Shown: piece by piece, positions 1,464-63,665 of the stretch
Layout of the letters: each line of letters opens with the position of its first letter
How positions within the stretch are numbered: the first letter of the stretch is position 1
DNA from: Janibacter sp. A1S7
GTDB lineage: Bacteria > Actinomycetota > Actinomycetes > Actinomycetales > Dermatophilaceae
Direction: 5' to 3'
Assembly: GCF_037198315.1 (NCBI RefSeq)
Contig: NZ_CP144913.1
Coordinates: 2,418,001-2,482,000, forward strand
DNA: 64,000 nucleotides
Position numbers and translations under genes: made by a program
Notes under the pieces: generated by a model
Databases searched by the model: none
What the model saw: the letters and a program-made list of their open reading frames with translations, nothing else
Told to the model about the DNA's origin: nothing

Positions 1464-1500
1464 CGAAGGGGGTGGGCCCACACCGGGCCCACCCCCTTCG
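1464..1500. terminator. bidirectional terminator built on a CGAAGGGGG inverted pair
   Basis: A perfect 16-base stem (1464-1479 with 1485-1500) closes a 5-base loop between the convergent DUF885 and lipase genes. Both arms begin with the 9-mer CGAAGGGGG, which recurs throughout the window. Confidence 0.85.
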
Positions 1501-1512
1501 CTCATCGCCGGC

Positions 1513-2784
1513 TCAGAGGCGCCAGCAGCTGTTGACCGTGGTGCGGCCGGCGAAGCGCTTCTCGAAGAAGTACATCGACTTCTCGACGTGCGGGATCATG
1601 CCGCCGATGTGTGTCGGGGTCAGACCGGGGTTGAGCGTCACCCGCGAGCCCCGGTCGCACCAGTCGCTGGCGAGCTGCTTGCCGACCTCGAAGGGGATGA
1701 CGTCATCGCCCCAGGCGTGGTTGATCACGACCGGAGCGCTCGGCTGCATCGTGCCGATCCGCTGCTCCTCCACCGCTGAGGCGAAGGGCTCCGTGGCGAG
1801 CAGCTCGGTCAGGTCCAGGCCGCTCTCGGTGTACTGGCCGCTGTCCTTGAAGGCATGGCTGAAGAGGTCGAAGACGCAGTCGCCCTCGACGGCGGCGGCC
1901 ACCTGCTCACCGGCGTCGTTGAGCAAGGGCGCCGGGTCGATGTGCTCGGCCGTGGCGACACCGAGCATGGCGAAGAGCGCGAAGGCGTTGTACAGGCCGC
2001 CGTCGATCGTCGCCCCGACCCTGGCGAGGTCCGCGGGTGGGGCGCCGATCGCGGACCCCCTGATGTCCAACTCGGGAGCGTAGGACGAGGCGAGCTCAGC
2101 GGCCGCGGCTGCGGCACCACCACCCTGCGAGTACCCCATCAGACCGATCGGGTTGTCCGCGTCCACGTCGTCGCCCGCCAGCTGCTGCGCGGCCCGGGCC
2201 ATGTCGAGGGAGGCATGGCCCTGGGCGGCGCGGACCATGTAGGTGTGCGTCCCGGGAGTGCCCAGCCCCTGGTAGTCGGTCATGGCGACCGCGTAGCCGC
2301 GCGAGACGGCCCGGGCGATGCCGATCCCCTCGTACTCGACGAGCTCCTCCATCTGGCGTGAGGGCGCACACGTGTCGGCGATCCCCTGCGTGCCGGCCGT
2401 GTACGAGATCAACGGTCGCCCGGAGGAGCCCACGTAGTCACTCGTCGGCACGAAGACGGTGCCGGTCACGGCGATCGGCACCCCGTCGGCGTCGGTCGAG
2501 GAGTACATCATCCGGGTGGCGGTGACGACGCGGGAGGACAGACCCAACGGGTCGAGCAGGAAGCTGGCCGGCTCGGTGCGGATGACCGTCCCGGGCGTGC
2601 TCGGGATCTGCGCCGGCGGCTCGTAGAAGTCGGGACGCCCCGGCTCCGGCGTGTCGGTGAGGGTGCTGGCACCCGCCGTGCCGGGGACGTCTCCCGGGCC
2701 GGCCTGGGCTGTACCGGCCAGGGGCACGGTGATGGCGATCGCGAGCGTGGCCGCTGCGGCAGACCGCTTGGCGAGGGAACTCAT
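1513..2784 (-). CDS. secreted lipase of the LIP (secretory lipase) family
   Basis: A 423-residue alpha/beta hydrolase. The N-terminus is a classical signal peptide (MSSLAKR, a hydrophobic stretch, then an AQA-type cleavage site near residue 28), so it is predicted to be exported. The nucleophile elbow GYSQGGG lies near residue 200. The overall layout (N-terminal cap, YTAGTQG, TDYQGLG, NHAWGDDVIPF near the end) matches the LIP family known from Candida and Actinobacteria. It probably hydrolyses esters or triglycerides outside the cell. The start at 2784 is chosen because the signal peptide begins there. It is divergent from maf and convergent with the DUF885 gene. Substrate preference cannot be read from the sequence. 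Confidence 0.85.
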   Translation of the reverse strand: MSSLAKRSAAAATLAIAITVPLAGTAQAGPGDVPGTAGASTLTDTPEPGRPDFYEPPAQIPSTPGTVIRTEPASFLLDPLGLSSRVVTATRMMYSSTDADGVPIAVTGTVFVPTSDYVGSSGRPLISYTAGTQGIADTCAPSRQMEELVEYEGIGIARAVSRGYAVAMTDYQGLGTPGTHTYMVRAAQGHASLDMARAAQQLAGDDVDADNPIGLMGYSQGGGAAAAAAELASSYAPELDIRGSAIGAPPADLARVGATIDGGLYNAFALFAMLGVATAEHIDPAPLLNDAGEQVAAAVEGDCVFDLFSHAFKDSGQYTESGLDLTELLATEPFASAVEEQRIGTMQPSAPVVINHAWGDDVIPFEVGKQLASDWCDRGSRVTLNPGLTPTHIGGMIPHVEKSMYFFEKRFAGRTTVNSCWRL

Positions 2785-2919
2785 GGACGTCCTGTCTGTG
2801 GCGGGAGCGAGATCCCCCGACCGGGCAGGGGGCTGACCCCGGACACGGGTGACCTCATCACTGGGTGGGGATAAGTTACCGACTGGTCACCTCGCCGGCA
2901 ACCGGAGGATGATGTCCTC

Positions 2920-3540
2920 ATGCACCCGCTCGTCCTCGCCTCCGCGTCCCCCGCCCGCCTCGGCCTGCTGCGCGCCAGTGGCCTCGACCCGCAGGTCGTG
3001 GTCAGCGAAGTCGACGAGGACGCGGTCGAGTCCCGGGCCCGGCAGCAGGACCCACGCCTCTCCCCCGCGGGTCTGGCCCAGGTGCTGGCGGAGGCGAAGG
3101 GGGCAGCCGTCCGGGACCGCCTGGCCGGGGACCACCGGCTCGTGCTCGCCTGCGACTCGGTGCTCGAGTTCGACGGCGCCGTCCACGGCAAGCCCGGCAC
3201 GGTCGAGCTCGCCCGCCGTCGATGGCAGGAGGTGCGCGGCAGGACCGGCACACTGCACACCGGGCACTGGATCGTCGACCCGGTCAGCGGACGGACCGCG
3301 GGTGCCCCGGCACAGGCAACAGTGCACTTCGCCGACGTCACCGACGCCGAGCTCGAGGGGTACCTTGCCACCGGCGAGCCGCTGCACGTCGCCGGTGGCT
3401 TCACGCTCGACGGGCTGGGCGCCCCCTTCGTCGACTCGATCGAGGGGCACCCCAGCACCGTGGTCGGACTGTGCCTGCCGCTGCTGCGGCAGCTGCTGAT
3501 CGACCTCGACGTCGCGTGGTGGGACATCGCCTCCGCCTGA
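2920..3540 (+). CDS. maf: Maf family nucleoside triphosphate pyrophosphatase
   Basis: A 206-residue cytosolic protein starting MHPLVLASASPARLGLL, the Maf signature in which SASPAR replaces the more usual SxSPRR. Later motifs are ACDSVLEFDG followed by GKP, the KPGT-type loop, and a C-terminal GGFTLDGLGAPFVDSIEGHPSTVVGLCLP segment typical of the family (shown here as landmarks, read between residues 160 and 190). Maf proteins hydrolyse dTTP, UTP or modified NTPs to the monophosphate and are implicated in house-cleaning and septum control. In M. tuberculosis maf also sits near acc genes, as here. The ATG at 2920 gives the standard length. The substrate subgroup is not assigned. Confidence 0.92.
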   Translation: MHPLVLASASPARLGLLRASGLDPQVVVSEVDEDAVESRARQQDPRLSPAGLAQVLAEAKGAAVRDRLAGDHRLVLACDSVLEFDGAVHGKPGTVELARRRWQEVRGRTGTLHTGHWIVDPVSGRTAGAPAQATVHFADVTDAELEGYLATGEPLHVAGGFTLDGLGAPFVDSIEGHPSTVVGLCLPLLRQLLIDLDVAWWDIASA

Positions 3541-3544
3541 CCCG

Positions 3545-3587
3545 CCGAGGGGCGACGGTGTCCTCACCGGTCACCACCGCCCCTCGG
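3545..3587. terminator. hairpin between convergent maf and subtilase genes
   Basis: Arms at 3545-3560 and 3575-3587 pair as CCGAGGGGCG..CGGTG with CACCGCCCCTCGG, leaving a two-base bulge. The position just after the maf stop and just before the end of the minus-strand protease gene suits a shared terminator. Confidence 0.65.
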
Positions 3588-3601
3588 CCTCGAGCAGCCC
3601 G

Positions 3602-4684
3602 TCAGGACACGGGTGTGCCCACGGCGGCCTCCGCGTCGACGATGCCCCTTCCGTACATGAGGGTCGCCCCACCGCGGGTCCCCAGCAAGGGGTGCCGCGC
3701 AGTGGTGAGCATCGCGTCCTCGACGCCGGCCATGGACCGCCCCTGGCCGTAGAGCAGGGCCGCGACCCCGGCGACGTGCGGGGTCGCCATCGAGGTACCC
3801 GCGTAGGCGTCGTAGTCCGCGCCGCCGCACTCCGGCGTGCCGGTACCGCGCGGGACGGTGGAGATGATGTTGTCCTCGCAGGGGCCACCGAGCGGATTGC
3901 CGGAGCCGCCCGGAGCGGCCACGGACTTGCCGCTGAGCTTGATCGGCAGCTCGGAGAAGTACGACTTGAGCTCGGTGCGATCCGTCGCCCCGACGCAGAT
4001 CGAGTCGCTGTTGAAGGCAGGGTCGTTGCACAGCAGGGTCGAGGTGTTGCCGGCCGCCGCGACCGTCAGCGTCCCCCGGCCACGGGCGTACTCGATGGCG
4101 TCGATGGTCGTCGTGTCCAGGCCCAGTGCGCCGATCAGCTGCAGGCCCGGCAGGCTGCCGAGGCTGAGGTTGATGACGTCCGCGCCGTTGTCGGCCGCCC
4201 AGCGGATGCCCTCGGCGATGTCGGCGTTGGTGCCCGCGCCGTCCTCGAGCACCTTGATCGGCATGATCCTCGCGTCCGGGGCGACCCCTGCGATGCCCAC
4301 CCGGTTGTCGGCGACGGCGGCGATCGTGCCGGCGACATGGGTGCCGTGGGAGTCGGTCGCCTGGCCGACACCGTCGACGCCCTTCCACCCCCCGTCACCG
4401 CAGGGACCCTCGTGACCGTCCTCGCAGACGAACGTCGCTCCGGGGACGAGCTGGCCGGCCAGGTCCGGGTGGCCCAGGTCGACGCCGGTGTCGACGACCG
4501 CGACGGTCGCCCCGCCACCGGTGGACTCGCTCCAGGACTGCTCGGCATGGATCTGGTCGAGCCCCCACAGCTCGGGGCGAAGGGGGTCGCTGGTCGCCGC
4601 GCTCGCGGCGCCGGCGGTGGCCACGAGACCGATCGCGCTGGTGGCGGCCGCCAGGGGCGCGGCCCATCGGATGCTGCGCTGCAT
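3602..4684 (-). CDS. secreted subtilisin-like serine protease (S8)
   Basis: A 360-residue precursor with a signal peptide (MQRSIRWAAPLAAATSA, then a cleavage site near GAASAA). All three catalytic motifs are present in order: Asp in VVDTGVDLGHPDL (near residue 68), His in HGTHVAGTIA (near 115) and Ser in GTSMATPHVAG (near 295). The oxyanion-loop sequence AAAGN is also visible. There is no long propeptide; the mature chain begins almost at once after the signal, and there is no C-terminal anchor, so it is probably released. Four cysteines (CEDGHEGPCGDG and CNDPAFNSDSIC regions) could form disulfides. Role inferred: extracellular protein degradation. Confidence 0.93.
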   Translation of the reverse strand: MQRSIRWAAPLAAATSAIGLVATAGAASAATSDPLRPELWGLDQIHAEQSWSESTGGGATVAVVDTGVDLGHPDLAGQLVPGATFVCEDGHEGPCGDGGWKGVDGVGQATDSHGTHVAGTIAAVADNRVGIAGVAPDARIMPIKVLEDGAGTNADIAEGIRWAADNGADVINLSLGSLPGLQLIGALGLDTTTIDAIEYARGRGTLTVAAAGNTSTLLCNDPAFNSDSICVGATDRTELKSYFSELPIKLSGKSVAAPGGSGNPLGGPCEDNIISTVPRGTGTPECGGADYDAYAGTSMATPHVAGVAALLYGQGRSMAGVEDAMLTTARHPLLGTRGGATLMYGRGIVDAEAAVGTPVS

Positions 4685-4785: not shown

Positions 4786-4804
4786 CCGGCAGGTGCGCGC
4801 AGGG

Positions 4805-10271: not shown

Positions 10272-11324
10272 TCAGGACGACAGATTGCCGGATTCGCCCT
10301 GCCTCAGGCTCCGTGGGCTCGCGCCGAACCATCTGCGGACCGCCCGGCTCAGCGCGCTCTGCTCGCTGAAGCCGAGCATCGCCGCCACCTGCGCGACGGG
10401 GATGTCCGTCGTCGTGAGGTACCGCTCGGCTGCCGAGCGGCGCACGTCGTCCAGGACGAGGTCGAAACTCGTCCCCTCTGCCGCCAATCGCCGCTGCAGC
10501 GTTCGTGGGTGCACGGACAGCAGTCGCGCGACCTGCGGGAGCGACGGGGAAACCGTGCCGAGCCCGTCGGACAGGGCCCCACGGACCCGGACCGCCGTCG
10601 ATCCGTGCGGGCTGGTGTAGTTCGCCGACAGGTGCGCCAGGGCGACCTCGCGGATCGACTCGTCGGCCGCGGAGAACCTCGCGTCCAGGACGCGCCGGTC
10701 GAGGCGGAGGGCGGCCACCGGTGCGTGGAAGCGGGTCGGCACGCCGAAGACCTCGGCGTAGTGCTCGATCGGCGAGATGGGCGCGTGCGGCACCTCGATC
10801 GACCGCAGGCCATCGATCCCGCCGAGCATGGCTGCGCAGATCCGTCGGAGCAGGGTGAGGCCGAGCTCCATGGCCTGGGGCGAGTACGGCGACTCCCTCA
10901 GGTCCTTGCGGTAGGTCACGGCGACGACACCGGTGGCCGCACGGGGATCGGCTTCGACGCCGATCCGCAGCGCCGGGCTGTGCACGAACATGAACCGCGT
11001 GGCGAACTCCAGAGCCTCGGCGACCGTCGAGGAGGACTCGATCGCCAGGGCCAGCGGGCCGAGGATGCCCAGATCCTGCCGCTGTGCCAGGCGCAGCCCG
11101 AGGTCCGGGCAGGCCAGCTCCTCGGCTGCGGTGTCGAGCATGAGGTCGTGGGCCGTGATCGAGATCAGTCCGTCGTCGTCATCGAGGACGGACTGCGGGA
11201 TGCGGAACCGAGCGAGCAGGCGAAGGGGGTCCCCGCCCAGCTCCTCGACCAGCGGCACGAACCCGCGCAGGCTGGCGGCACGGATCAGTGCCGTGTCACC
11301 GGCGGCCGCTGCACGAGGCTTCAT
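10272..11324 (-). CDS. AraC family transcriptional regulator
   Basis: A 350-residue regulator with a long N-terminal ligand domain of the Arabinose_bd type (QtrG/OruR-like; LDTAAEELACPDLGLRLAQ is typical) and two C-terminal helix-turn-helix motifs: LPQVARLLSVHPRTLQRRL near residue 270 and VAQVAAMLGFSEQSALSRAV near 315. The start at 11324 (MKPRAAAAGD) gives the family's standard length; the longer open frame overlaps the MoxR gene and is spurious. It is transcribed towards the MBL-SDR pair and lies 74 bases upstream of it in the same direction, so it could be co-transcribed with or control those genes. The inducer is unknown. Confidence 0.88.
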   Translation of the reverse strand: MKPRAAAAGDTALIRAASLRGFVPLVEELGGDPLRLLARFRIPQSVLDDDDGLISITAHDLMLDTAAEELACPDLGLRLAQRQDLGILGPLALAIESSSTVAEALEFATRFMFVHSPALRIGVEADPRAATGVVAVTYRKDLRESPYSPQAMELGLTLLRRICAAMLGGIDGLRSIEVPHAPISPIEHYAEVFGVPTRFHAPVAALRLDRRVLDARFSAADESIREVALAHLSANYTSPHGSTAVRVRGALSDGLGTVSPSLPQVARLLSVHPRTLQRRLAAEGTSFDLVLDDVRRSAAERYLTTTDIPVAQVAAMLGFSEQSALSRAVRRWFGASPRSLRQGESGNLSS

Positions 11325-11435: not shown

Positions 11436-12344
11436 ATGACCCACACCCCCCGCTTCGCCTCCGTCGACGACGTCCGGGAGCGCCTGGCCGACCACGGCTA
11501 CCTCGCCTCCGACGCGATCGCGACGACGGTCTACCTCGCGGACCAGCTGGGCAAGCCGCTGCTCGTCGAGGGCCCGGCAGGCGTCGGCAAGACCGCCCTC
11601 TCTGCGGCGGTGGCGTCCGCGACCGCGGGTGAGCTCGTCCGCCTGCAGTGCTACGAGGGCGTCGACGAGGCTCGCGCGCTCTACGAGTGGAACCACGCCA
11701 AGCAGCTGTTGCGGATCACCGCCGCCGGCGCCCATCACGACGCGAAGGGGGCGGACGAGGCCGACTGGTCCTCGGTCAAGGAGGACATCTTCACCGACGA
11801 GTTCCTCCTGGCCCGACCGCTGCTGACCGCCATCCGCAACGAGCACCGCACGGTGCTGCTCATCGACGAGCTGGACAAGGCGGACGTCGAGATCGAGGGG
11901 CTGCTGCTCGAGGTCCTCTCCGACTTCCAGGTGACCGTGCCCGAGCTCGGCACGATCCGGGCGCGGCAGACCCCCTTCGTCGTGCTCACCTCGAATGCCA
12001 CCCGGGAGCTGTCCGAGGCGTTGCGGCGCCGCTGCCTCTACCTGTACATCGACTACCCGCCGGCCGATCTCGAGCGGCAGATCGTCGCGCTCACCGTGCC
12101 CGACCTCGACAAGGCACTCACCGACTCGATCGTCCGGCTCGTCGGCGCCCTGCGGGAGATGCGGCTGCGCAAGTCCCCCTCCGTCGCCGAGACGATCGAC
12201 TGGGCGCGCACCCTGCTCAGCCTCGGGGCGGCCGGTGACCTCGACCCGGGGCTGGTCCGCGCCACCCTGGGCGTCGTCCTGAAGCACCAGGAGGACATCG
12301 ACCTGGCCGCGGAGAAGCTGGACCTCGCCGGTGTCCTCACCTGA
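11436..12344 (+). CDS. MoxR-type AAA ATPase
   Basis: A 302-residue AAA+ ATPase. Walker A is GPAGVGKT (residues 46-53), Walker B is VLLIDELDKAD, and sensor 1 is LTSNATRELSEALRRRC with the arginine finger. The C-terminal lid domain has the ALREMRLRKSPSVAETIDWA segment seen in CoxD/MoxR proteins. The downstream VWA gene starts (GTG 12331) before this one stops, an overlap of 14 bases, the standard MoxR-VWA (CoxD-CoxE) arrangement. Such pairs act as chaperones inserting metals or cofactors into partner enzymes; no partner enzyme such as CO dehydrogenase lies adjacent here. The ATG at 11436 is preferred; the frame upstream is only open by chance. Confidence 0.92.
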   Translation: MTHTPRFASVDDVRERLADHGYLASDAIATTVYLADQLGKPLLVEGPAGVGKTALSAAVASATAGELVRLQCYEGVDEARALYEWNHAKQLLRITAAGAHHDAKGADEADWSSVKEDIFTDEFLLARPLLTAIRNEHRTVLLIDELDKADVEIEGLLLEVLSDFQVTVPELGTIRARQTPFVVLTSNATRELSEALRRRCLYLYIDYPPADLERQIVALTVPDLDKALTDSIVRLVGALREMRLRKSPSVAETIDWARTLLSLGAAGDLDPGLVRATLGVVLKHQEDIDLAAEKLDLAGVLT

Positions 12345-13803
12345 TCCACTCGGCGCGCGGCTGGTCGACCTCGGCCGGTCGCTGCGCCGGCACGGGGTGA
12401 AGGTCGGCACCTCGGAGATCACCGATGCGGCGGCGGCTGCCCGCGTGCTCGGCCTGGCGGATCGCGAGCGGCTGCGTGCCGGGGCTGCGGCGGCGATGAT
12501 GCGCCGCTCGTCCGACCGCGAGCTGTTCGACCAGCTCTTCGACATCCACTTCCCGGCCGCCGTGGGCGCCCGCACCGGCGAGGACGAGGCCCCGGAGGCG
12601 ACGGACGCTGCCGGGGCCCGCGAGCGCGCCGCCGCCATCCGCGAGGACCTCGTCGAGGCGCTGGCCCGCGCCGACGACGAGGAGCTGGACCGGTTGGCCG
12701 CACGGGCGCTGGCCGAGCTCGGACGACTGTCCAACGAGGCGAGCACGGGCGGGTGGTCGGCACACCAGGCGATCGAGCGGCTTGCCCCGCAGACCGCGGT
12801 CGCCGCCGCCCTGCAGCGGGCCCGGGACGCCGGCGACGTCACCGGCGGATCCGGTGAGGGCTCGGGTGGCTCCGGGCAGGGCTCGGGCGGTGCCTCCGGC
12901 GGCGCCGGGGGCGAAGGGGGCCCACGCTTCAGTGACCGCTACGACCGGGATGAGATCCGCAGCCGGGTCGGTCACTTCCGTCGCAGGATCGAGACCGAGG
13001 CCGCCCGGCGCAATGCCGAGGTCCGCGGACGTGACCGGATCTCCCGCTACGGGGTACGGGACCCGTTGGAGCGCAAGGACTTCCTGCTCACCGGCACCAC
13101 GGAGGCGGCCGAGCTGCAGGCCGCGATCGGGCCCCTCTCGCGCAAGCTCGCGGCCAAGCTCGCCGCACGGCAGCGTCGGCACTCCCGCGGGGCCATCGAC
13201 ATCCGACGCACGCTGCGGGCGGCGATGTCCACCGGCGGTGTCCCCATCCGCCCGGCCCACCGTCGTCGTCACCGCAGTCGCGCGGAGATCGTCCTGCTCT
13301 GCGACATGTCCGGGTCGGTCGCGGGGTTCTCCCGGTTCACGATGCTGCTGCTGCAGTCCCTGGCCGGTGTCTTCCGCCGCGTGCGCTTCATCGGCTTCAT
13401 CAACACCTGCGACGACATCACCGAGCTGGTGCGCGACAGCCGCGTCGGCGAGGACATCCGCGAGCGGGTCTCGCGCGAGGCGACGATGACGCGATGGCAC
13501 GGCTCGAGCGACTACGGCGCCGCCTTCGAGGACGCCGTCAGGAACCACATCGACGCCATCGGGCCGCGCTCGACCCTGCTGGTCCTCGGTGACGCCCGCA
13601 CCAACGGCACCGACCCGCAGGTGGACGCGTTGCGCGAGCTCGTCACCCGCGCGAAGCACGCCGTCTGGCTCAACCCCGAGCCGGTGGGCCAGTGGGACAC
13701 CGGCGACTCCGTGGCCGGTCGCTACGCGCAGGTCGTCGACATGCACGAGGTGCGCAACATCGACCAGCTGCGGCAGTTCGTCTCCCGCCTGCCGGTCACC
13801 TGA
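12331..13803 (+). CDS. CoxE-like von Willebrand factor A domain protein
   Basis: A 490-residue protein with an N-terminal helical domain (about 1-160), a flexible glycine/serine linker (residues 170-195, repeated GSG units), a middle region that interacts with nucleic-acid-like or ATPase partners in homologues, and a C-terminal VWA domain. The MIDAS motif DMSGS is at about residue 326 (LLCDMSGSVAG), with a threonine and aspartate contributed later. It starts with GTG inside the 3' end of the MoxR gene, so the two are translationally coupled. Known CoxE-like proteins work with their MoxR ATPase in enzyme maturation. The client of this pair is not evident. Confidence 0.88.
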   Translation: MSSPDPLGARLVDLGRSLRRHGVKVGTSEITDAAAAARVLGLADRERLRAGAAAAMMRRSSDRELFDQLFDIHFPAAVGARTGEDEAPEATDAAGARERAAAIREDLVEALARADDEELDRLAARALAELGRLSNEASTGGWSAHQAIERLAPQTAVAAALQRARDAGDVTGGSGEGSGGSGQGSGGASGGAGGEGGPRFSDRYDRDEIRSRVGHFRRRIETEAARRNAEVRGRDRISRYGVRDPLERKDFLLTGTTEAAELQAAIGPLSRKLAAKLAARQRRHSRGAIDIRRTLRAAMSTGGVPIRPAHRRRHRSRAEIVLLCDMSGSVAGFSRFTMLLLQSLAGVFRRVRFIGFINTCDDITELVRDSRVGEDIRERVSREATMTRWHGSSDYGAAFEDAVRNHIDAIGPRSTLLVLGDARTNGTDPQVDALRELVTRAKHAVWLNPEPVGQWDTGDSVAGRYAQVVDMHEVRNIDQLRQFVSRLPVT

Positions 13804-14716: not shown

Positions 14717-17286
14717 GTCGCACCGAGCCCCTCGTCGGTCTGTCCTCCATCCGCACCCGTCTGGCGGTCCTGGTCGGGGTGAGCGTGCTCGTCGCCGCGG
14801 TCGTCGGCGCCGTCGGTACCGACGCCGGGGTCCCCCTCGGGTTGGCGCTGCCCGCGACGATCGCCCTCGCCCTCGTGATCACCCGGTGGCTCGCGACCGG
14901 GATGACCACCCCCCTTCGGCAGATGACCGAGGCCGCCGACCGGATGGCTCGCGGTGACTACGGCGCCCGGATCACCACGAGCGGCCGGGACGAGGTCGGC
15001 GCGCTGGCGCGGGCCTTCGCCACGATGGCCCGGGACCTCGAGGAGGGCGAGGAGCGTCGGCGCCAGCTCGTCGCGACCGTCGCCCACGAGCTGCGCACGC
15101 CGTTGAGCGCCCAGCGCGCCCTCCTGGAGAACCTCGTCGACGGGGTCACCGCCCCCAGCGACGCCACGCTCGGCAGCGCCCTCGCCCAGTCCGAACGCCT
15201 CAGCTCCCTCGTCGCCGACCTGCTCGACCTCTCCCGCCCCGATGGCGGTGTCCCGCTCAACCCCAGCCGCGTCCTGGTCGCCGACCTCCTGACGTCCGCG
15301 CTCGACGAAGCCTCCCTCCAGGGTCGCGAGGTCACCCTGGTCACCGACGTCGAGCCGCCCGACCTCACCATCACCGGTGACCGGGCCCGCCTGGCGCAGG
15401 TCACCGCCAACCTCTTGGACAACGCCGTGCGCCACAGCCCCACCGGTGGGACCGTCACCGTGACCGCCCGGCGCTGCGACGACCAGTGGTCGCTCACCGT
15501 CACCGACGAGGGGCCAGGGTTGTCCCCGGAGCGTGCCGAGCGCCTTTTCCACCGCTTCGGTCAGGGAGCGGACGAAGGGGGTGGCACCGGCCTGGGTCTG
15601 GCGATCGTCGCGTGGGTCGCCGACCTGCACGGCGGTGGTGTCCAAGCGCTCGCTCCCGGCGACGCCGGGGCGAGGATGCGCATGACGCTGCCGATCGCTC
15701 CTCCCGCACCGGGCGACTCCGGGTCGTGGCCGCTCGCCTCGGCACGTGAGGTCGTTCCCTCTTCGCCCACCACCAGGTCCGCACCGGAGGAACAGATGAC
15801 CCCCTCGACGGCGCCAACCACCACGACGACCACGGCTGCACCCCCTTCGACGGGGCTTGCGCGGTGGTGGCCGGAGCGGATCACCACACCCCGGCCGGAC
15901 CTGCTGCTCGCCGCTCTCGGCGTCGGGATCGTCGCAGCGATCCTGCTGCCGGACCATGCGATCGGACTCGGGATGCTGGTCGTGCTCTCCTGCGGCGGGC
16001 TGGCCATCTGGCTCGCCTCACCCCGCCGGTCGGCCCGCTGGTCATGGTTCGCCGCAGCACTGTCGCTGCCGCTCGCCGCGACGACGGTGCTGCGTGACAA
16101 CCCGGGCTTCACCTTCCTCGCCGTCGCGGTGGCCGGGGTCCTCGCGGCGACCTCCTGCACGGATGCCCGCACCGTCCCCGGCATCGTCGCCGCCGTCGCG
16201 GCGTGGCCGTTCTCGGCGCTGCGCGGTCTCCCCCTGCTCGACCGGACCATCAAGGCACTCGCCCGACGAGGGAAGACCTGGTCGGTGCTGCGGACCGCCG
16301 CCGTCAGCCTCGTGCTGCTCCTCGTCTTCGGAGGGCTGCTCGCCTCCGCCGATGCCGTCCTCGGGTCGTGGGCGTCCGCGCTCGTGCCACAGCCGAGCGA
16401 GATGATCGTCTTCCGGGCATTCACCCTCGTCTTCTTCACCGGTATCACCCTCAGCGGGCTGTACCTGGCCATCAACCCGCCCCGGGTCCACCAGGTGCGA
16501 GGGGGCACGGCACGGATCCCGATGTGGGAGTGGGCGGTCCCCCTGGGCGTCGTCATCGCGGTCTTCGTCGCCTTCATCGCGGCGCAGGCGGCTGCGATGT
16601 TCGGCGGGCACGAGTACGTCCTGCGCACCACCGGGCTCACCTACGCCGAGTCCGCGCGCGAGGGCTTCGGGCAGCTGACGGTCGCCACCGCCCTGGTGCT
16701 GCTGCTCATCGCCGGCGTGCGCGCCTGGGGTCGGGCCGACACCGTGCGCGACCGCCGGGTGATGACGGCGACGAGCGCGGCCCTGTGTGTGCTCACCCTC
16801 GTCGTCGTCGCCTCGGCGCTGCGCCGGATGGCGCTGTACCAGGACGCCTTCGGCTACACGGTCCTGCGGGTGAGCGTCGACCTCTTCGAGATCTGGCTCG
16901 GCGCCGTCGTGCTGTCCGTGCTCGTCTCGCTCCTCGCCCCGTCCCGCCGGTGGCTGGGTCGCACGGTGCTCGTCAGCGCGGCCATCGTGACGATCGTGTG
17001 GTCCGTGGGCAACACCAGCGCGTGGGTCGCCGAGCACAACATCGAACGGTGGGAGGCGACCGGGTCCCTGGACGAGTGGTACCTCGCGTCGCTGCCCGAC
17101 GACGCGGTCCCGGCGATCGCCCGGAGCGCCCTGCCCGACGAGACGAAGGCGTGCATCCTGCAGGTGGGCGCCACTGCGACCGACGTCGACGACGGTCTAC
17201 CGGGGTGGAACCTCGCCCGTGAGCGCGCCGCCGACATCCGGGCCGGGTACACCGCGAGCGACTCCTGCACGCTGCGTGGTCGTTGA
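14713..17286 (+). CDS. sensor histidine kinase fused to a DUF4173-type membrane protein
   Basis: One open frame of 857 residues carries two modules. Residues 1-330 form a histidine kinase: two membrane helices, HAMP (about 60-112), phosphoacceptor [14 protein letters not shown] (His about 127) and ATPase boxes [24 protein letters not shown]. After a Thr/Ser/Pro-rich linker (about 340-380) comes a polytopic membrane module of about 450 residues resembling DUF4173/DUF4153 proteins (INPPRVHQ, about 12 helices, soluble tail). At 15786-15796 a GGAGG sequence sits five bases before an in-frame ATG (MTPSTAPT), so the membrane module also has the signals of an independent gene. In another frame a TGA at 15747 would end a stand-alone kinase. 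It may be a true fusion or the result of an indel. Partner of the preceding regulator. Confidence 0.82.
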
Positions 17287-41606: not shown

Positions 41607-44254
<2,648 letters not shown>

Positions 44255-46934: not shown

Positions 46935-46976
46935 CGAAGGGGGTGATCCACGCAGCCGGCGGGGTCGCCCCCTTCG
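46935..46976. terminator. terminator of the isocitrate dehydrogenase gene (CGAAGGGGG pair)
   Basis: The arms begin with CGAAGGGGG and end with CCCCCTTCG, with G-U-tolerant pairing through about 15 positions, 22 bases after the stop codon. Confidence 0.8.
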
Positions 46977-50753: not shown

Positions 50754-51487
50754 GTGAGGATCTGCACAGCCTCTCCGGCGCCTACGTGCTCAACTCCCTC
50801 ACCGAGCAGGAGCGTGCCGACTTCGAGATGCACCTGCGCCGCTGCCCGACCTGCCGGGACGAGATCGACTCGCTTCGCGAGGTGGTCCCCCTGCTCGCCG
50901 AGACCGTCGCGAGCGAGCCGCCCCCCTCGTTGCGGGAGAACATCCTCGCGCAAGCGGCCCGGACACGGCAGGACCCACCGGACTCCGTCCAGCAGGCAGA
51001 GGTGCCGCCCGCCCGCGTCCGCGAGCACCCTGCGCACGGCCGGGTGATCCCCCTTCGTCGTCGTCGGTGGGCGGCCGGCCTCGCCGCCGCAGCAGCCCTC
51101 GTCGTCGGCGGCGGCGTCACCTGGCAGGTCGTCGAGCAGACGACCACCGGCGTCACCGAGCAGGTCGCCTCGGCGCCGGACGCCCGCAGCTGGCAGGCCG
51201 AGACCACCAGCGGCGCCACGATCGTCGTCACCCGCAGTGAGCAGATGGGCGAGGCGGTGCTTCGTGTCAAGGGCCTGGACGACCCCGGCGAGGGTCACGC
51301 GTACCAGGCCTGGCTGCAGAACGAGGAGGGCAACATGGTCCCGGCCGGAGTGATGAGCGGGACCGACGGCGAGATGGTCCTCAAGGGTGACGTCAAGCAG
51401 GCGAAGGGGGTCGGTCTGACCGTCGAGCCGGCCGGTGGCTCGGAGCAGCCGACGACCGACCCGGTCGCCCTGGTCGTCCTGTCCTAG
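50750..51487 (+). CDS. rskA: anti-sigma-K factor RskA
   Basis: A 245-residue single-span membrane protein. The N-terminal cytoplasmic anti-sigma domain (about 1-70) includes HLRRCPTC, the zinc-binding-like HxxxCxxC motif. One membrane helix ([17 protein letters not shown], about 105-122) separates it from the extracytoplasmic RskA domain, with [20 protein letters not shown]. It holds SigK inactive at the membrane until regulated proteolysis. Stop-start overlap with sigK indicates coupled synthesis. Confidence 0.93.
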
Positions 51488-52586: not shown

Positions 52587-52626
52587 CGAAGGGGGACCCG
52601 CGCCGGTTGGTGCGGGTCCCCCTTCG
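52587..52626. terminator. terminator of mdh (CGAAGGGGG pair)
   Basis: A perfect or near-perfect 18-base stem (CGAAGGGGGACCCGCGCC with its complement, one mismatch) with a short TT-containing loop, 16 bases after the mdh stop. Also serves the convergent DUF3017 gene. Confidence 0.85.
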
Positions 52627-53965: not shown

Positions 53966-55576
53966 TCAGTGGGCGAAGTGCCGGGTACCGGTGAAGTACA
54001 TCGTGATGCCGGCCGCCTTCGCGGCCTCGACGACCTCGTCGTCACGCACCGAGCCACCGGGGGCGACGACTGCGCGGACCCCGGCGTCGAGCAGGACCTG
54101 CAGACCGTCAGCGAAGGGGAAGAACGCGTCGGAGGCCGCCACGGCCCCCTTCGCCCGGTCCTCACCGGCACGTCCGACCGCGAGGTGGCAGGAGTCGACG
54201 CGGTTGACCTGCCCCATGCCGATACCGACGGAACCGCCGTCCCTGGCCAGCAAGATGGCATTGGACTTCGTCGCCCGTACCGCACGCCACGCGAAGGCGA
54301 GGTCGGCGAGGGTCGCGCCGTCCGCAGCCTCACCGGCCACCAGGGCCCACCGAGTCGGGTCGTCGCCCTGTCCGCCACGGCCCCGGCTGGAGTCCTCGCC
54401 ACTCGTCGGCTCGACCACGGCGTCGATCGCGTCGCGGTCCTGGACGAGGACGCCACCGGAGATCGGACGCACCTCGACTCCGCCCGGTGTCGGTGTGGCG
54501 ACCTTCAGCAGGCGACGGTTCTTCTTCTCCTTCAGGATCTCCAGCGCATCGGCGTCGAAGTCGGGCGCCAGGACGACCTCGGAGAACGTGTCATTGAGCG
54601 CCGTCGCCATCGTGGCGGTGATCGGGCGGTTGCTGGCGACGATGCCGCCGTAGGCCGACACCGGGTCGCAGGCCTGGGCACGCTCGTAGGCAGCCTCGAT
54701 GGTCTCGCCCACGGCGATGCCGCAGGGATTGGCGTGCTTGATGATCGCCACGGTCGGCAGGTCACCGTGGTCGTGCGCGGCGCGCAGAGCAGCGTCGGCG
54801 TCGACGTAGTTGTTGTAGGACATCGCCTTGCCGTGCAGCTGCTCGGCCTGCGCGAGCCCCGCGCCACCGTCGGCGACGTAGAGGGCAGCGCGCTGGTGCG
54901 GGTTCTCGCCGTAGCGCAGCGTCTGCTCGCGGGTCCAGGTGCCACCGATCTGCGCGTCGAAGCCGGTGCCGTCGCCGGTGTCGGCCACCGTGTCGGCCAT
55001 CCAGTCGGCGACCGCCACGTCGTAGCGGGCCGTGTGGGCGAAGGCCTCGGCAGCGAGTCGCTGGCGCTGCTCGAGGGAGAAGCCGCCACCGCGGACGGCG
55101 TCGAGGACACCGCCGTAGCCGTCGGGGTCGGTCACGATCGCGACGGACGCGTGGTTCTTCGCCGCGGCGCGCACCATCGTCGGCCCCCCGATGTCGATCT
55201 TCTCGATGCAGTCCTGCACGCCCGCGCCGGAGGCGACGGTGTCGGCGAAGGGGTAGAGGTTGACCACGACGAGGTCGAAGGGGGCGACCTGCAGCTCCTC
55301 GAGCTGGCGGACGTGGTCGCTCAGCCGGGTGTCGGCCAGGATCCCGGCGTGGACCCGTGGGTGCAGGGTCTTGACGCGGCCGTCGAGGCACTCGGGGAAT
55401 CCGGTGAGGTCCTCGACCTTGGTCACGGGCAGGCCGAGCTTCTCGATCAGGGCGGCCGAGCCACCGGTGGAGACCAGCTCGACACCGGCGTCGGCGAGGC
55501 CCGAGACGAGGTCCTCCAGGCCGGTCTTGTCGAAGACCGAGACGAGGGCGCGGCGGACGGGGCGAGGATCGGACAC
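53966..55576 (-). CDS. purH: bifunctional AICAR transformylase/IMP cyclohydrolase
   Basis: A 536-residue enzyme performing the last two steps of purine synthesis. The N-terminal cyclohydrolase domain shows [25 protein letters not shown] and [18 protein letters not shown]; the C-terminal transformylase domain shows [13 protein letters not shown] and the catalytic KHANPCG. A short non-conserved insert ([17 protein letters not shown]) lies near residue 395. The GTG start at 55576 has CAGGAG six bases upstream. Its leader contains a ZTP riboswitch, so expression is tied to the folate/ZMP status. Confidence 0.96.
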
Positions 55577-55604: not shown

Positions 55605-55682
55605 TGGGTGCACCCAGGCGGGCGATGCACCCCGACGTCCACTCCCCGGTGGTGATCCACCTTCGCCAGTCGTGTGTGTGGA
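55605..55682 (-). promoter_or_regulatory. ZTP (pfl) riboswitch upstream of purH
   Basis: Read on the minus strand, the leader contains the ordered pfl-motif elements: ACTGGCG, the GTGG..CCACC-type hairpin with GGTGGATCACCACC, CGGGGAGTGG and, after a short insert, CCGCCTGGGTGCA, which pairs with the 5' region in the pseudoknot. The aptamer senses ZTP/ZMP, which builds up when 10-formyl-THF is short, the exact substrate need of PurH. It ends about 30-40 bases before the purH start. Confidence 0.88.
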
Positions 55683-55684
55683 TG

Positions 55685-55743: not shown

Positions 55744-56349
55744 TCAGCCCACGAGGCAGCGACGCCCCTCGACCCGCCAGCCACCGGTGGCCATGGCCGT
55801 GACGACGTCAACGAGCATCTCCCGCTCGACGACCTTGATCCGCTCGTGGAGTGACTCCTGCGTGTCCTCGTCGGTGATCTCGACGACACGCTGCTCGATG
55901 ATCGGACCGGTGTCGACCCCGGCGTCGACGAGATGGGCGGTCGAGCCGGTGATGCGCACGCCGTGGGCGAGCGCATCACGCACCCCGTGGGCGCCCGGGA
56001 AGGAGGGCAGCAGCGCCGGGTGGGTGTTGACGACGGTGGCCGACCCGAGCGTGGCCGGGCCCAGGATCTTCATGAAGCCCGCGGTGACGACGAGGTCGGG
56101 GGCGTGTCCACGCACCCGCTCGGCCAGTGCCGCGTCCCACGCGATCCGGTCGACGTGGTCGGAGACCGCCTCGACGAAGGTCGGGACACCGGCTGCCTCG
56201 GCCCGCTCGAGGCCGGGGCAGCCAGCCCGGTCGGCACCGACGGCGACGACCTCCGCCGGGAGCGTGCCGGCCGCCTGCGCGTCCAGCAGTGCCTGCAGCA
56301 GGGAGCCGGATCCGGAGACGAGGACGAGGAGACGAAGGGGGTCGCTCAC
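55744..56349 (-). CDS. purN: phosphoribosylglycinamide formyltransferase
   Basis: A 201-residue GAR transformylase. The N-terminal phosphate loop SGSGSLLQAL, the catalytic segment NTHPALLPSFPGAHGVRDAL (His and the HPxLLPSFPG core) and TAHLVDAGVDTGPII (catalytic aspartate) are intact. It uses 10-formyl-THF for the third step of purine synthesis. GTG at 56349 (VSDPLRLLV) is the start. It precedes purH, separated by the 167-base leader that carries the riboswitch. Confidence 0.95.
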   Translation of the reverse strand: MSDPLRLLVLVSGSGSLLQALLDAQAAGTLPAEVVAVGADRAGCPGLERAEAAGVPTFVEAVSDHVDRIAWDAALAERVRGHAPDLVVTAGFMKILGPATLGSATVVNTHPALLPSFPGAHGVRDALAHGVRITGSTAHLVDAGVDTGPIIEQRVVEITDEDTQESLHERIKVVEREMLVDVVTAMATGGWRVEGRRCLVG

Positions 56350-56418
56350 GCCGGGGAGTCTATCCGCGCTCGCGAGCCGAGCCCCTCCCCCTTCGCGACT
56401 GCGTGGGCTCGGGCGAGC

Positions 56419-57576
56419 TCAGCGGCGCAGGACCCACCACTCCCGTGCGAACACCGCGAGGGCACCCAGGCCGAGCTCGAGGACGAGCACGAGGCCGAGC
56501 CACTGGGCGGGCGCACCGAGGTGGGCGAGGTGCTCGGCACCCAGGGAGCCGCCGCCGAGCAGGTCGAGCCCGACCACACCGAGGGCAGCGACCCCGACGG
56601 AGACGGCGATGACCGCGAGCTTGGTCTGGGTCGCGGCGAGCCGCGGAACCCAGACGAGCGTCTCGCGACCCAGCCAGACGCCGATGAGCAGCGGGAGCAG
56701 GATCAGCAGGTGGGTGGCCCAGTGCAGGTCCCCCGGCTGCGGCTGAGCCGCGAGCGCCGGGACCATCGGCAGCAGGCCCGAGTCCGCAGCGGCCCATGTC
56801 GTGGTGGCTCCTCCGGTCGTGAAGCCGGGACCGGCGGCGAAAGAGGCGCCCCAGACGCCCAGGTTCGGCAGCAGACCCACTTGGAGCAGAACCAGCAGCA
56901 GCCCACCGAAGAAGCCCGCCCCCAGGTCGGCGTGGACCTGCATGACGCGGGCGATGTTGACCCCCACCGCCACGAGCACGAGCGCCGAACCGGCCGCGAC
57001 GGTGGCCAGGGCCCCCTTCGCCCCGGGGACGAGCCCACGGTGCAGCGCGACCGGGGCCCGCCGCCACAGCGCGCGGATGCCCTCGGGCAGCCCGTGCGCC
57101 CAGGCCAGGGCCACGACCGGGAGCACGAGCAGCGGCAGGACGAGGGAGAGCACATCCGGACCGATCGGCGCGAGCAGACCGAGCAGGGCCGCGATCACGC
57201 CGACCGCGGCGTAGCCGCCGAGCCAGGAACCCTGCAGCCGCAGGTCGGGCTCCTCCGGCAGGCCGCGACGCGCGCCGTACCTGGCGAGCACGAGCAGGGC
57301 GAGGGTCCACACGAGCGGCGTGAGCGCCACGGTGCCCCCGTCCAGGGACAGTCGGGCGCCGCCGAGCACGAGCCAGAGGAGCGCACCGGAGCCGATCGAC
57401 TCCCCCACGCCGGCAGCGGCGCGAGGGACGGCCAGCGCCGCGAGGAGGACGAGCGCGAGGGGTGCGAGCAACCCCGCGAGCGCCGTCAGCACGCCGGCCC
57501 CGGCAGCCCGCAGCTCGGGGCGCCGGCGGACATCGTCGGCGGTCGCCGCGGACCTGATGAGCTCCAGCACGGTCAC
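56419..57576 (-). CDS. DUF6350 polytopic membrane protein
   Basis: A 385-residue integral membrane protein with about ten hydrophobic helices and few long loops. The gene is typically found next to purN/purH in actinomycetes, as here, and is named DUF6350; some annotations link it to cell division (PerM), which the sequence does not prove. GTG at 57576 is used since it yields a short cytoplasmic start (VTVLELIRSAATADDVRRRPE) before the first helix. It is divergent from the ECF sigma factor gene. Confidence 0.85.
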   Translation of the reverse strand: MTVLELIRSAATADDVRRRPELRAAGAGVLTALAGLLAPLALVLLAALAVPRAAAGVGESIGSGALLWLVLGGARLSLDGGTVALTPLVWTLALLVLARYGARRGLPEEPDLRLQGSWLGGYAAVGVIAALLGLLAPIGPDVLSLVLPLLVLPVVALAWAHGLPEGIRALWRRAPVALHRGLVPGAKGALATVAAGSALVLVAVGVNIARVMQVHADLGAGFFGGLLLVLLQVGLLPNLGVWGASFAAGPGFTTGGATTTWAAADSGLLPMVPALAAQPQPGDLHWATHLLILLPLLIGVWLGRETLVWVPRLAATQTKLAVIAVSVGVAALGVVGLDLLGGGSLGAEHLAHLGAPAQWLGLVLVLELGLGALAVFAREWWVLRR

Positions 57577-60266: not shown

Positions 60267-61510
60267 GTCGTGCTCCTGTCCTGGTTGTCGGCCGGCAGCC
60301 ACGGTAGGTCGTGACCCATCCGGTCCCGCTTGGTGCGCAGGTAGCGCAGGTTGTCGTCGGTGACCCCTGCCGGCAGTGGCGTGCGGCCGACGGCCTCGAC
60401 GCCCAGGGCGCGCAGCGCCTCGACCTTGGCCGGGTTGTTGCTCAGGAGCTGCAGGCGGGTGATCCCCAGCTCGCGCAGGACCTGCGCGGCGTGGGTGTAG
60501 TCGCGGGCGTCGACCGGCAGCCCCAGGTCGGAGTTGGCGTCGACGGTGTCGGCACCCGCGTCCTGGGCGGCGTACGCGCGCAGCTTGTCGACGAGGCCGA
60601 TGCCCCGACCCTCGTGCCCGCGGACGTAGACGATCACCCCGGCGCCCGCATCGACGATGATCCGCTGGGCGGCCTCGAGCTGGGGTCCGCAGTCGCACCT
60701 GCGGGAGCCGAAGACGTCCCCGGTCAGGCACTCGCTGTGCACGCGCACCAGCGGGGTCCCGGTCGTGATGTCGCCGTGCACGAGCGCGATGTGCTCGCTG
60801 CCGTCGATCCCGGAGCGGAAGCCGTGCGCGATGAACTCGCCGGTGGCCGTGGGCAGCCGGGTCGTCACGACGGGCTCGATGAGCGCCTCGGTGCGCCGGC
60901 GGTGCTCGACGAGGTCGGCGATGCTGACCAGCGGCCAGCCGCGCTCGTCGGCCAGGCGGCGCAGGGAGGGCAGCCGGGACATGGACCCGTCCTCCTCGAC
61001 GACCTCGCAGATGACACCGGCGGGCGCCCGGCCGCCGAGGCGGCACAGGTCGAGCGCGGCCTCGGTGTGGCCGCGCCGCACGAGCACACCGCCACTGCGG
61101 GCGCGAAGGGGGAAGACGTGGCCCGGTCGCGCGAGGTCACCGCGCACCGTGGTCGGGTCGGCGAGCAGCCGTGCGGTGCGGGCCCGGTCAGCAGCGCTGA
61201 TGCCGGTGGTCACCCCTTGGGCGGCATCGACGGAGACGGAGTAGGCGGTGCCCTTGGCGTCCTCGTTGATCGCGGTCATCGGCGGCAGCGCGAGGCGGTC
61301 GAGTTCCTCCCCGGTCATCGCCACGCAGATCACGCCGCTGCCCAGGCGCACGGTCAGACCCATCAGCTCGGGGGTGGCGGCGTCGGCGGCGAAGATGATG
61401 TCGCCCTCGTTCTCCCGGTCGGCGTCGTCGACGACGAGCACCGGCTCACCCGCGGCGATCGCCTCGATCGCTCGCCCGACGTCGTCGAGCAGGTCGTCAC
61501 GCCCAGTCAT
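60263..61510 (-). CDS. ribBA: bifunctional DHBP synthase/GTP cyclohydrolase II
   Basis: A 415-residue fusion. The N-terminal half (about 1-205) is 3,4-dihydroxy-2-butanone-4-phosphate synthase with [17 protein letters not shown] and [16 protein letters not shown]; the C-terminal half is GTP cyclohydrolase II, with zinc ligands in [16 protein letters not shown] and the [10 protein letters not shown] motif. Both halves keep their catalytic residues. The start ATG at 61510 overlaps the ribE stop. Confidence 0.96.
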
Positions 61511-62118
61511 CGGTTCTCTCCCGTCTCGAGTGCGAGCATGCGGCCCACGTACTTGCCGAGGATGTCGACCTCGACGTTGACGCGGTCGCCGACCCCCTTG
61601 CGGCCCAGCGTGGTCAGCTCGAGGGTGGTGGGGATCAGGGCGACCTCGACGACGTCCGCGCCGACCGCGGAGAGGGTCAGGCTCACGCCGTCGAGGCAGA
61701 TCGAGCCCTTCTCCACGACGAAGGGGGCCAGCCCCGGGTCGAGGGAGAGGCGCACCTCCTCCCACCGGTCGCCCGGTCGACGCTCGAGGATCGTCGCGGT
61801 GCCGTCGACGTGCCCCTGGACGAGGTGTCCGTCCAGACGCGCGCCCAGGACCATCGCCCGCTCGAGGTTGACGGCATCACCGACCAGGAGATCGCCCAGG
61901 CCGGTGCGGCGCAGGCTCTCGGCCATGACGTCGAAGGTGACCTCACCTCCCTTCGCCCGGGTGTCGGTGACGGTGAGGCAGGCGCCGTTGACGGCGATCG
62001 AGGCCCCGTGGGCGGGGTCGCTCGTGGTGACGTCGCCGCGGACGGTGATCCGGCTGGAGTCGGAGCCCGTCTCGATGGCGACCACCTCCCCGAGCTCCTC
62101 GATGATCCCGGTGAACAT
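61507..62118 (-). CDS. ribE: riboflavin synthase alpha chain
   Basis: A 203-residue enzyme made of two similar barrel repeats. It begins [12 protein letters not shown], the diagnostic start; each half has a [20 protein letters not shown] motif and a [10 protein letters not shown] segment marks the junction. It dismutates two lumazine molecules to riboflavin. Stop and start overlap the neighbouring rib genes. Confidence 0.95.
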
Positions 62119-63221: not shown

Positions 63222-63317
63222 GGAACCCTCTCGTGCTCTGACGCGAGCAACGGGGCGAGGGAGACACGTCCTGCGACGTGACGGCGTGCACCGGAAGGTC
63301 GATCGCTCGACCTCGAC

Positions 63318-63345
63318 CGTGCCGCTGGGAAGACCACGCGGCACG
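63318..63345 (-). promoter_or_regulatory. hairpin in the expression platform of the FMN riboswitch
   Basis: CGTGCCGC (63318-63325) pairs with GCGGCACG (63338-63345) around a 12-base loop, just 3' of the aptamer in the direction of transcription. There is no T tract, so whether it ends transcription is unclear. Confidence 0.5.
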
Positions 63346-63357
63346 GCGGCGCCACCG

Positions 63358-63483
63358 CGTGCTGCCTCCCATCCGGACTTTCACCGTCGGTGCTGGAGTT
63401 CCACCAGCTCGGCTCCCCTCCGTGAGGACGAGGAGTTCGCGGACTGTCACCGCCGGCTCGGACTTTCACCGACCCCGGAGCAC
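63358..63483 (-). promoter_or_regulatory. FMN riboswitch (RFN element) controlling the rib operon
   Basis: On the minus strand the RFN landmarks occur in order: CTCCGGGGTCGGTGAAAGTC, CCGGCGGTGACAGTCCGCG, the CTGGTGGAACTCCAG hairpin, ACCGACGGTGAAAGTCCGGA and the closing GGGAGGCAGCACG. Binding of FMN is expected to shut off ribD-ribE-ribBA-ribH. Confidence 0.96.
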
Positions 63484-63506
63484 GCGTACGACGTTTGTTC
63501 GTACGC
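63484..63506 (-). promoter_or_regulatory. short perfect hairpin just 5' of the FMN aptamer
   Basis: GCGTACGA (63484-63491) and TCGTACGC (63499-63506) are perfect 8-base arms around a 7-base loop. On the minus strand a TATCCT -10-like hexamer (63512-63517) lies six bases upstream, so the dyad would be at the transcript's 5' end, as a protective stem or an operator. Confidence 0.5.
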
Positions 63507-63625
63507 TCACGAGGATACCCGTCCGCTCGTGATCACGGCACGTGGGTCCGCTCACAGGCTCCAGCACCGCCACGTGGGTCGGGGCCGGATCCCGACAGCA
63601 TCCCCAGCGATGTGCCGACACACGA

Positions 63626-63665
63626 CGAAGGGGGCTGACGACCGCGTGGTCGTCGGCCCCCTTCG
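63626..63665. terminator. terminator of sucD (CGAAGGGGG pair)
   Basis: An 18-base stem with one mismatch and a GCGT loop; the arms start with CGAAGGGGG and end with CCCCCTTCG. It lies 17 bases after the sucD stop on the minus strand. Confidence 0.85.

Follow-up and report, generated by a model that had tools for sequence, protein, structure and literature searches.

We analyzed a 64,000-nucleotide stretch of the chromosome of Janibacter sp. A1S7 (bases 2,418,001 to 2,482,000 of a contig of 3,360,916 bp, a 3.36-Mb chromosome coded G000; the whole stretch is called the window here), in which one nine-base word, CGAAGGGGG, is the commonest 9-mer. This word is most likely a DNA uptake sequence (DUS) of Janibacter and of genus g59 of the same family, i.e., a nonpalindromic self mark that the uptake machinery would prefer, a bias that we infer from the genomic pattern. 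The same interpretation had been proposed in an earlier sequence-only reading of the window, and it is supported here, since neither the count against Markov and codon expectations nor the leading-strand skew spoke against it. Taken together with the words carried by other genera of the family (f1, the Intrasporangiaceae in NCBI terms, Actinomycetota), it is likely that we are dealing with a self-DNA recognition system for transformation that evolved independently, as the third of its kind and the first in Gram-positives: a family with at least four dialects (CGGCATAC, CGGCATCC, CCGCATAC, and CGAAGGGGG), read by tad/Flp rather than type IVa pili, in which Janibacter and g59 would have switched to a mutually exclusive dialect, possibly isolating the lineage genetically when it arose. 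Genomes are referred to by codes such as G000 and genera by codes such as g2.

Overrepresentation and strand distribution

In the window, which has a G+C content of 70.9%, CGAAGGGGG occurs 19 times and its complement CCCCCTTCG 17 times; these are exactly the numbers given by the sequence-only reading, and all 26 of its 26 example coordinates were correct. Its estimate of about two expected copies was also sound, with Markov models of orders 1 to 4 predicting 0.9, 1.3, 1.6, and 1.9 copies (strands summed). Order 5 predicts 10.0 copies, and orders 6 and 7 predict 26 and 31, because the last two models include the word's own 7- and 8-mers. By z score, the word ranks first among the 9-mers of the window at orders 2, 3, and 5. 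The genome-wide check that the reading had proposed gave 684 + 675 copies for the whole chromosome (reversed-word control, 17 + 12), far above the Markov and codon-shuffle expectations.

A genome-wide strand balance is insufficient to exclude polarity, because two replichores cancel each other. With dnaA located at 3,325,773 and the terminus assumed to lie opposite, 127 of the 249 copies in a 658-kb sample (about a fifth of the chromosome) are on the leading strand (P = 0.80), which excludes a polar motif and agrees with the earlier claim that KOPS-like polarity, of which a leading-strand skew would be the sign, is absent. Close pairs aside, the gaps between copies are random-like (coefficient of variation, 1.0). 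The 249 perfect copies compare with 15.1 expected (∼16-fold), whereas all 27 one-mismatch forms together occur 489 times against 401 expected, i.e., the excess is 234 for the perfect word and 88 for the mismatched forms; the raw total of the latter exceeds that of the perfect word because the G+C-rich background expects 401. Having far more perfect than singly mismatched copies is a peculiarity of the DUS and of the uptake signal sequence (USS) (PMC1626085). The most enriched one-mismatch form, CGAAGGGAG (50 copies against 10.6 expected in G000 and 39 against 4.3 in G009), is perhaps a second accepted form of CGAAGGGGG.

Selection on DNA and maintenance of the word

Selection on CGAAGGGGG acts on the DNA and not on peptides or codons. 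The 447 genes called over 484 kb of G000 by a codon-model script written for this analysis contain 157 copies (81 sense and 76 antisense), while 100 within-gene synonymous shuffles gave a mean of 26.8 and a maximum of 38, which rules out a peptide or codon origin. The same holds for two other Janibacter genomes, with 93 observed copies against a shuffle mean of 16.5 in G009 and 38 against 6.6 in G001 (50 shuffles each). Genic copies use frame offsets 1, 2, and 0 in 109, 39, and 9 cases, respectively, and the genes of the window use several frames and both senses, as the sequence-only reading had stated. Outside genes or straddling gene ends are 48 of the 205 sites, an approximately twofold excess given a noncoding share of only 11.5% in the 484 kb. 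The flanks show a preference for GR 5' of the word and for non-G 3' of it, and beyond that a weak codon-like periodicity (extended consensus, GRCGAAGGGGGH).

Selection or drive keeps the word, with turnover of its sites. Across the ComEC region in 16 genomes of Janibacter, CGAAGGGGG was conserved at fractions of 0.81, 0.54, 0.49, and 0.35 of orthologous positions in genome pairs of ≥88, 84 to 88, 80 to 84, and <80% identity (116, 59, 508, and 350 words), compared with 0.46, 0.36, 0.23, and 0.18 for matched 9-mers of equal A+T content, which makes it 1.5 to 2.1 times better conserved in a comparison of nonindependent pairs with a control that is not matched for codon frame.

CGAAGGGGG is scarcer in foreign-looking DNA, as judged from G+C bins and one mobile element. 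Among 139 bins of 4 kb, the ratio of observed to composition-expected copies was 3.3 below 65% G+C (2 words in 7 bins), 4.6 at 65 to 67% (6 words in 13 bins), 11.1 at 67 to 69%, and 13.7 to 17.1 at higher G+C contents. Positions 400,001 to 418,723 of G000, which encode a pSAM2-type RepSA, a resolvase, and an integrase, contain no copy of the word. Two copies are present in a second low-G+C stretch (355,931 to 374,481), and a single one in 1,570,001 to 1,590,000 (67% G+C).

Inverted pairs at gene ends

The 484 kb contain 14 neighboring pairs of words at most 80 bp apart, of which 13 are inverted and 10 intergenic. In 9 of the 10 intergenic inverted pairs, the words point inward with 19 to 24 bp between them. 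Inverted pairs hold 26 of the 205 sites, a share close to the ∼10% given for DUS and USS copies (PMC1939737). The four intergenic pairs of the window, which the sequence-only reading placed correctly and called terminators, lie 9 to 23 bp from a stop codon and fold into strong hairpins (-40 to -45 kcal/mol; z, -6.4 to -9.2; Table 1). No U tract was found after these four hairpins, and we therefore infer a terminator role from the stem and its place past the stop codons.

Distribution of the word and its dialects in the family

Among 58 genomes compared, all 16 Janibacter genomes carry 797 to 1,860 copies of CGAAGGGGG, near-equal on the two strands, and the 42 others at most 72 each; 22 genomes of other families showed no enrichment. 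In a draw of 149 genomes from 53 genera of the family, the word was enriched in nine of nine Janibacter genomes and in three of three g59 genomes (1,317 to 1,939 copies), with at most 80 copies in the other 137. This restriction to a clade, with other genera of the family likewise carrying words of their own, is in line with the uptake interpretation.

Across the family, CGGCATAC is the most common word and has the dialects CGGCATCC and CCGCATAC; the word of Janibacter and g59 is far more diverged. In 20-kb samples from several other genera, RCGGCATAC ranked first or close to it. At the whole-genome level, CGGCATAC was regarded as enriched with at least 500 copies and at least three times the reversed-word control, which applied to 76 of the 149 family genomes (29 genera); 11 were intermediate and 62 low, the latter including two g57 genomes (1,646 and 1,660 copies) because the surroundings of CGGCATAC raise the control too. 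The median strand imbalance of genomes with at least 500 copies is 0.9%, and the imbalance never exceeds 6.2%. Only 7 to 41 copies of CGGCATAC are present in each of the 12 genomes with CGAAGGGGG, and no genome is enriched for both words. There was no enrichment of CGGCATAC in 148 genomes from 19 other families of the order (highest count, 167, with a control of 184), and the dialect set is confined, as sampled, to one actinobacterial family.

Two dialects differ by a single base. CGGCATCC reaches 3,816 and 3,838 copies in g17 (controls, 392 and 439) and 3,949 in g48 (control, 289), while the remaining 27 of the 30 genomes counted have 260 to 1,336 (controls, 145 to 406). CCGCATAC reaches 1,204, 878, and 511 copies in g21 (controls, 107, 97, and 88), the remaining 27 of 30 genomes being at control level. 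Mixed words were seen in samples of g13 (CGGCATAC and CGGCATTC) and g4 (CGGCATAC and CGTCATAC). With 50 synonymous shuffles per genome, genic copies of CGGCATAC exceeded the shuffle mean in G019 (37 versus 3.1), G022 (27 versus 1.8), G026 (65 versus 10.2), G018 (52 versus 5.3), and G032 (47 versus 4.4), as did those of CGGCATCC in G031 (37 versus 7.5) and CCGCATAC in G035 (17 versus 2.9); in two wordless genera, genic CGGCATAC showed no excess (1 versus 2.4 and 1 versus 2.5). Our impression is that the family words tend to start with RC, followed by G within one base, possibly a shared core.

Eight further genera, sampled over 40 to 80 kb each (G016, G017, G023, G024, G025, G028, G029, and G034), yielded no clear word. 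G016 has a mild excess of CGGCATCC (1,336 copies with a control of 310; 38 genic copies against a shuffle mean of 17.5 and a maximum of 24 in 50 shuffles), and CCGGTCGAG of G034 lies mostly in one stretch (15 of 20 copies). The 20-kb sample of G021 contains ACCGSCTCC-like words. Genomes of one genus can differ strongly, with 19 copies of CGGCATAC in G105 and 3,681 in G131 (both g47) and with 37 in G158 and 1,660 in G150 (both g57). Neither G105 nor G158 is clearly enriched for CGGCATCC or CCGCATAC; the low genomes of these two genera may be natural losses or may carry another dialect.

Some further repeats involve these words or their hosts. In G017 (C17, 129291 to 130273), 17 copies of CCGCATAC follow each other at a spacing of 60 to 61 bp, possibly a CRISPR or tandem array. 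The g16 genome G030 (L104, L130, L167, and L168) carries an intergenic repeat, AGCCCAGCGGCATACGG, partly as inverted pairs, and a second word, GCACACTCGA, 10 times in 40 kb. G001, which has the fewest words among the Janibacter genomes, contains clustered repeats with the palindromic core TGCCCGGGCA (GCGCAACTGCCCGGGCAAAT) at ∼50 sites within 160 kb, arrayed with a period of 29 to 32 bp (for example, L041, 811 to 977).

Competence machinery and ancestry of ComEC

ComEC was found in 57 of the 58 relatives, including all 16 Janibacter genomes, and DprA in all 16 of the latter. When named genomes were searched with ComEC, Janibacter limosus NBRC 16128 matched at 77% identity. ComEA is encoded near ComEC in 43 of 44 loci examined (one locus being a duplicate). 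The exception is the Janibacter genome G008, where comEC is truncated (L077, 8896 to 11954) and adjoins a serine-recombinase gene, and where the 20-kb locus showed no ComEA; apparently, a mobile element has inserted into comEC. This genome keeps 905 + 892 copies of CGAAGGGGG despite the disrupted gene.

The type IVa (N-methyl) pilin signature PF07963 was detected in 12 of the 58 relatives, only 1 of 16 Janibacter genomes, and not in G000. We ruled out a type IVa pilin as the reader of the word, given this absence in 15 of the 16. G000 has six T2SSE matches, and the four regions examined are all tad-like, encoding TadA, TadB, TadC, and small pilin-like proteins as judged from their open reading frames. 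Three small proteins of the tad regions were scanned, yielding a single family match, to a TadE-like model and below its cutoff. Among the loci compared, two of the four tad-like regions have counterparts in both word-bearing and wordless genera. Genera with and without a word are not told apart by ComEC, ComEA, the T2SSE ATPases, or either of the two tad loci compared, so that the com/tad comparison suggested by the sequence-only reading gave no division between them. Such a separation would be compatible with G021, which lacks a clear word and matches T2SSE only weakly (1.8e-4), although this is a single genome.

A ComEC tree was built from 40 rows, leaving out a duplicate J. limosus row and three partial rows of Janibacter; g59 is absent from it. 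In this tree, Janibacter forms one clade (support, 100/100) nested in a clade (94/97) with genera that carry CGGCATAC, CGGCATCC, and CCGCATAC. Three more CGGCATAC genera (G018, G019, and G033) are found in a neighboring group among wordless ones. This arrangement tentatively points to CGGCATAC as the older word and to a switch in Janibacter.

Proposed mechanism

Double-stranded DNA with the word would bind to a surface protein that reads the sequence, most likely one of the minor pilins encoded by a tad-type (Flp) locus; by analogy with ComP and ComN, this reader may be a TadE/TadF-like minor pilin. The pilus would then pull the DNA to ComEA, ComEC would pass one strand, and DprA and RecA would recombine it. 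If word-bearing DNA enters more often, recombination would restore and spread the word (molecular drive), which coding frames would tolerate and which would find a second use in hairpins past stop codons. In Janibacter and g59, it looks as if the reader and the word had changed together.

Weighing of alternative explanations

Chi, KOPS, and HIP1 are overrepresented short chromosomal words like CGAAGGGGG; they are polar or palindromic, and unlike them, CGAAGGGGG is paired at gene ends. Chi words are usually G-rich and overrepresented and differ between groups, so that the G-rich, clade-specific CGAAGGGGG could be taken for a Chi-type signal, which is read on one strand by a recombination nuclease-helicase of the RecBCD, AddAB, or AdnAB type, where degradation stops and recombination starts. 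Chi of Escherichia coli favors the leading strand, as expected of a polar signal, whereas CGAAGGGGG divides evenly. It is likewise overrepresented (1,008 copies against 151 expected), but its one-mismatch forms occur 8,855 times against 3,579 expected, a much larger surplus than that of the mismatched forms here, with the reservation that the expectation models differ (PMC1939737). In addition, a Chi signal leaves the inward hairpin pairs past stop codons unexplained, and G richness is not shared by CGGCATAC, the family's other word, all of which makes this explanation improbable. Still less probable is a site for a nucleoid, segregation, or other chromosome-organizing protein (KOPS, matS, or Noc-like). 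The chromosome-wide presence of CGAAGGGGG and its maintenance by selection or drive would suit such a site; the lack of polarity, the random-like spacing, and the turnover of about half of the sites between species at 80 to 84% identity would not, nor would the scarcity in low-G+C DNA, in which a packaging site would not lose its use.

We assign a similarly low probability to a self/nonself mark of a restriction, BREX-like, or other defense system, or to a site of methylation, a role suggested for HIP1 of cyanobacteria. Genomes normally avoid restriction sites, whereas CGAAGGGGG is strongly enriched; it is also not palindromic, and such a mark has no need of inverted pairs at gene ends. What speaks for it is that self-marking words are clade specific, as well as the reported recognition of methylated DNA in the uptake of Campylobacter (PMC8468864). 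The least credible candidate, to the point of being nearly negligible, is a mobile or transcriptional repeat, such as a repetitive extragenic palindrome (REP), a miniature inverted-repeat transposable element (MITE), or a terminator family. It would account for the inverted pairs at gene ends, but 157 of the 205 sites are inside genes and the flanks carry little beyond GR and non-G; with no long conserved unit and mostly genic copies, we rejected a REP/MITE repeat for CGAAGGGGG.

Several observations weigh against a DUS. A low-G+C stretch of 20 kb (L154) holds five words, and the depletion in such DNA is therefore incomplete. In g16, CGGCATAC is mostly intergenic (28 of 40 copies) with long conserved flanks within a longer repeat; although genic copies number 12 against a shuffle mean of 2.1 and a maximum of 5, the g16 copies are likely a REP-like element and were not counted as DUS. 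The N-methyl pilins that are absent from 15 of 16 Janibacter genomes are the class to which the known reader ComP and the predicted reader ComN belong. Wordless genera carry equal ComEA/ComEC and tad-type loci, and therefore no tested gene tracks the word. The 94/97 clade of the ComEC tree, moderately supported, also holds the wordless G016 and two rows of another family, so that comEC transfer or weak resolution is possible.

Relation to known uptake systems

Such words have so far been reported for two Gram-negative families, which use them for the uptake of DNA of their own kind. As in the family studied here, the DUS of the Neisseriaceae has thousands of copies, which are both genic and intergenic, form inverted pairs at terminators, and come in several dialects, with some genera being wordless (PMC3630211). 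The system described here differs in its unrelated sequence, in its high-G+C actinobacterial host, in the lack of N-methyl pilins in 15 of 16 Janibacter genomes, and in having one dialect that shares almost nothing with the rest. With the USS of the Pasteurellaceae (Hin and Apl types), it shares a 9-bp core, an excess of perfect copies, two clade-specific types per family, and competence genes throughout, whereas the USS has AT-rich flanking segments and the Janibacter word only a weak flank preference (PMC1626085). The predicted reader of the USS is the minor pilin ComN/PpdA (PMC12616744).

Among the papers listed in searches of the open-access literature (preprints not included), there was no report of the words themselves or of an uptake word in Actinobacteria, Intrasporangiaceae, Janibacter, or Gram-positives, nor one of transformation of Janibacter being favored by the word. 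Micrococcus luteus belongs to the same NCBI order as Janibacter. It is likewise an actinobacterium with tad loci, and tad genes in two loci are required for its transformation (PMC4322843; PMC6370729). Unlike in the family studied here, an uptake word is not mentioned for the Flp/tad system of M. luteus in the part of PMC4322843 available to us.

If our interpretation is true, a family-wide set of words in Actinobacteria would mean that biased uptake evolves repeatedly, and the question of why such words exist (self-recognition versus drive) could be put to the test in a further, independent case, one that includes natural losses and a dialect switch. It would also suggest that tad/Flp pili bear a DNA reader of a new class and provide a practical handle for genetics in many genera.

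Features of the window

The single copies and pairs of the window are listed in Table 1. Nine open reading frames of the window compared with NCBIfam gave no match bearing on CGAAGGGGG.

Table 1. Positions of CGAAGGGGG in the window, as single copies and inverted pairs, with predicted folding energies of the pairs
Feature	Position	Strand	Context	Folding (kcal/mol; z score)
Word	3095..3103	+	Genic, sense	
Word	3422..3430	-	Genic, antisense	
Word	4578..4586	+	Genic, antisense	
Word	11221..11229	+	Genic, antisense	
Word	11743..11751	+	Genic, sense	
Word	11971..11979	-	Genic, antisense	
Word	12912..12920	+	Genic, sense	
Word	14910..14918	-	Genic, antisense	
Word	15573..15581	+	Genic, sense	
Word	15841..15849	-	Genic, antisense	
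Word	20618..20626	+	Genic, sense	
Word	23478..23486	+	Genic, sense	
Word	23654..23662	-	Genic, antisense	
Word	27434..27442	-	Genic, sense	
Word	37306..37314	+	Genic, antisense	
Word	41690..41698	-	Genic, sense	
Word	49629..49637	-	Genic, antisense	
Word	51049..51057	-	Genic, antisense	
Word	51402..51410	+	Genic, sense	
Word	54145..54153	-	Genic, sense	
Word	55276..55284	+	Genic, antisense	
Word	57012..57020	-	Genic, sense	
Word	61104..61112	+	Genic, antisense	
Word	61719..61727	+	Genic, antisense	
Inverted pair, CGAAGGGGG 1464 (+)/CCCCCTTCG 1492	1464..1500		Hairpin between convergent genes, 9 bp past stop of 13-1455(+)	-40.0; -7.8
Inverted pair, 46935/46968	46935..46976		Hairpin 23 bp past stop of 44693-46912(+)	-39.9; -6.4
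Inverted pair, 52587/52618	52587..52626		Hairpin between convergent genes, 16 bp past stop of 51576-52571(+)	-44.8; -9.2
Inverted pair, 63626/63657	63626..63665		Hairpin 17 bp beyond stop end (63682) of minus-strand gene 63682-63999	-42.1; -7.4
Inverted pair, 48469/48502	48469..48510		Within gene 47868-49388(+)	-32.7; -6.3
Inverted pair, 56333/56387	56333..56395		Spans gene end at 56349; no clear advantage of the hairpin over shuffles (31/200 as good)	-32.7; -1.1

Two riboswitches that pass the Rfam gathering score lie on the minus strand of the window, an FMN riboswitch at 63355 to 63487 and a ZMP/ZTP riboswitch at 55605 to 55683. Elsewhere on the chromosome (L006, 4923 to 5982; G000, ∼894,900 to 896,000), the dodecamer TTGTCCGAGTTG or its complement occurs 16 times in 1.1 kb, forming a local array.

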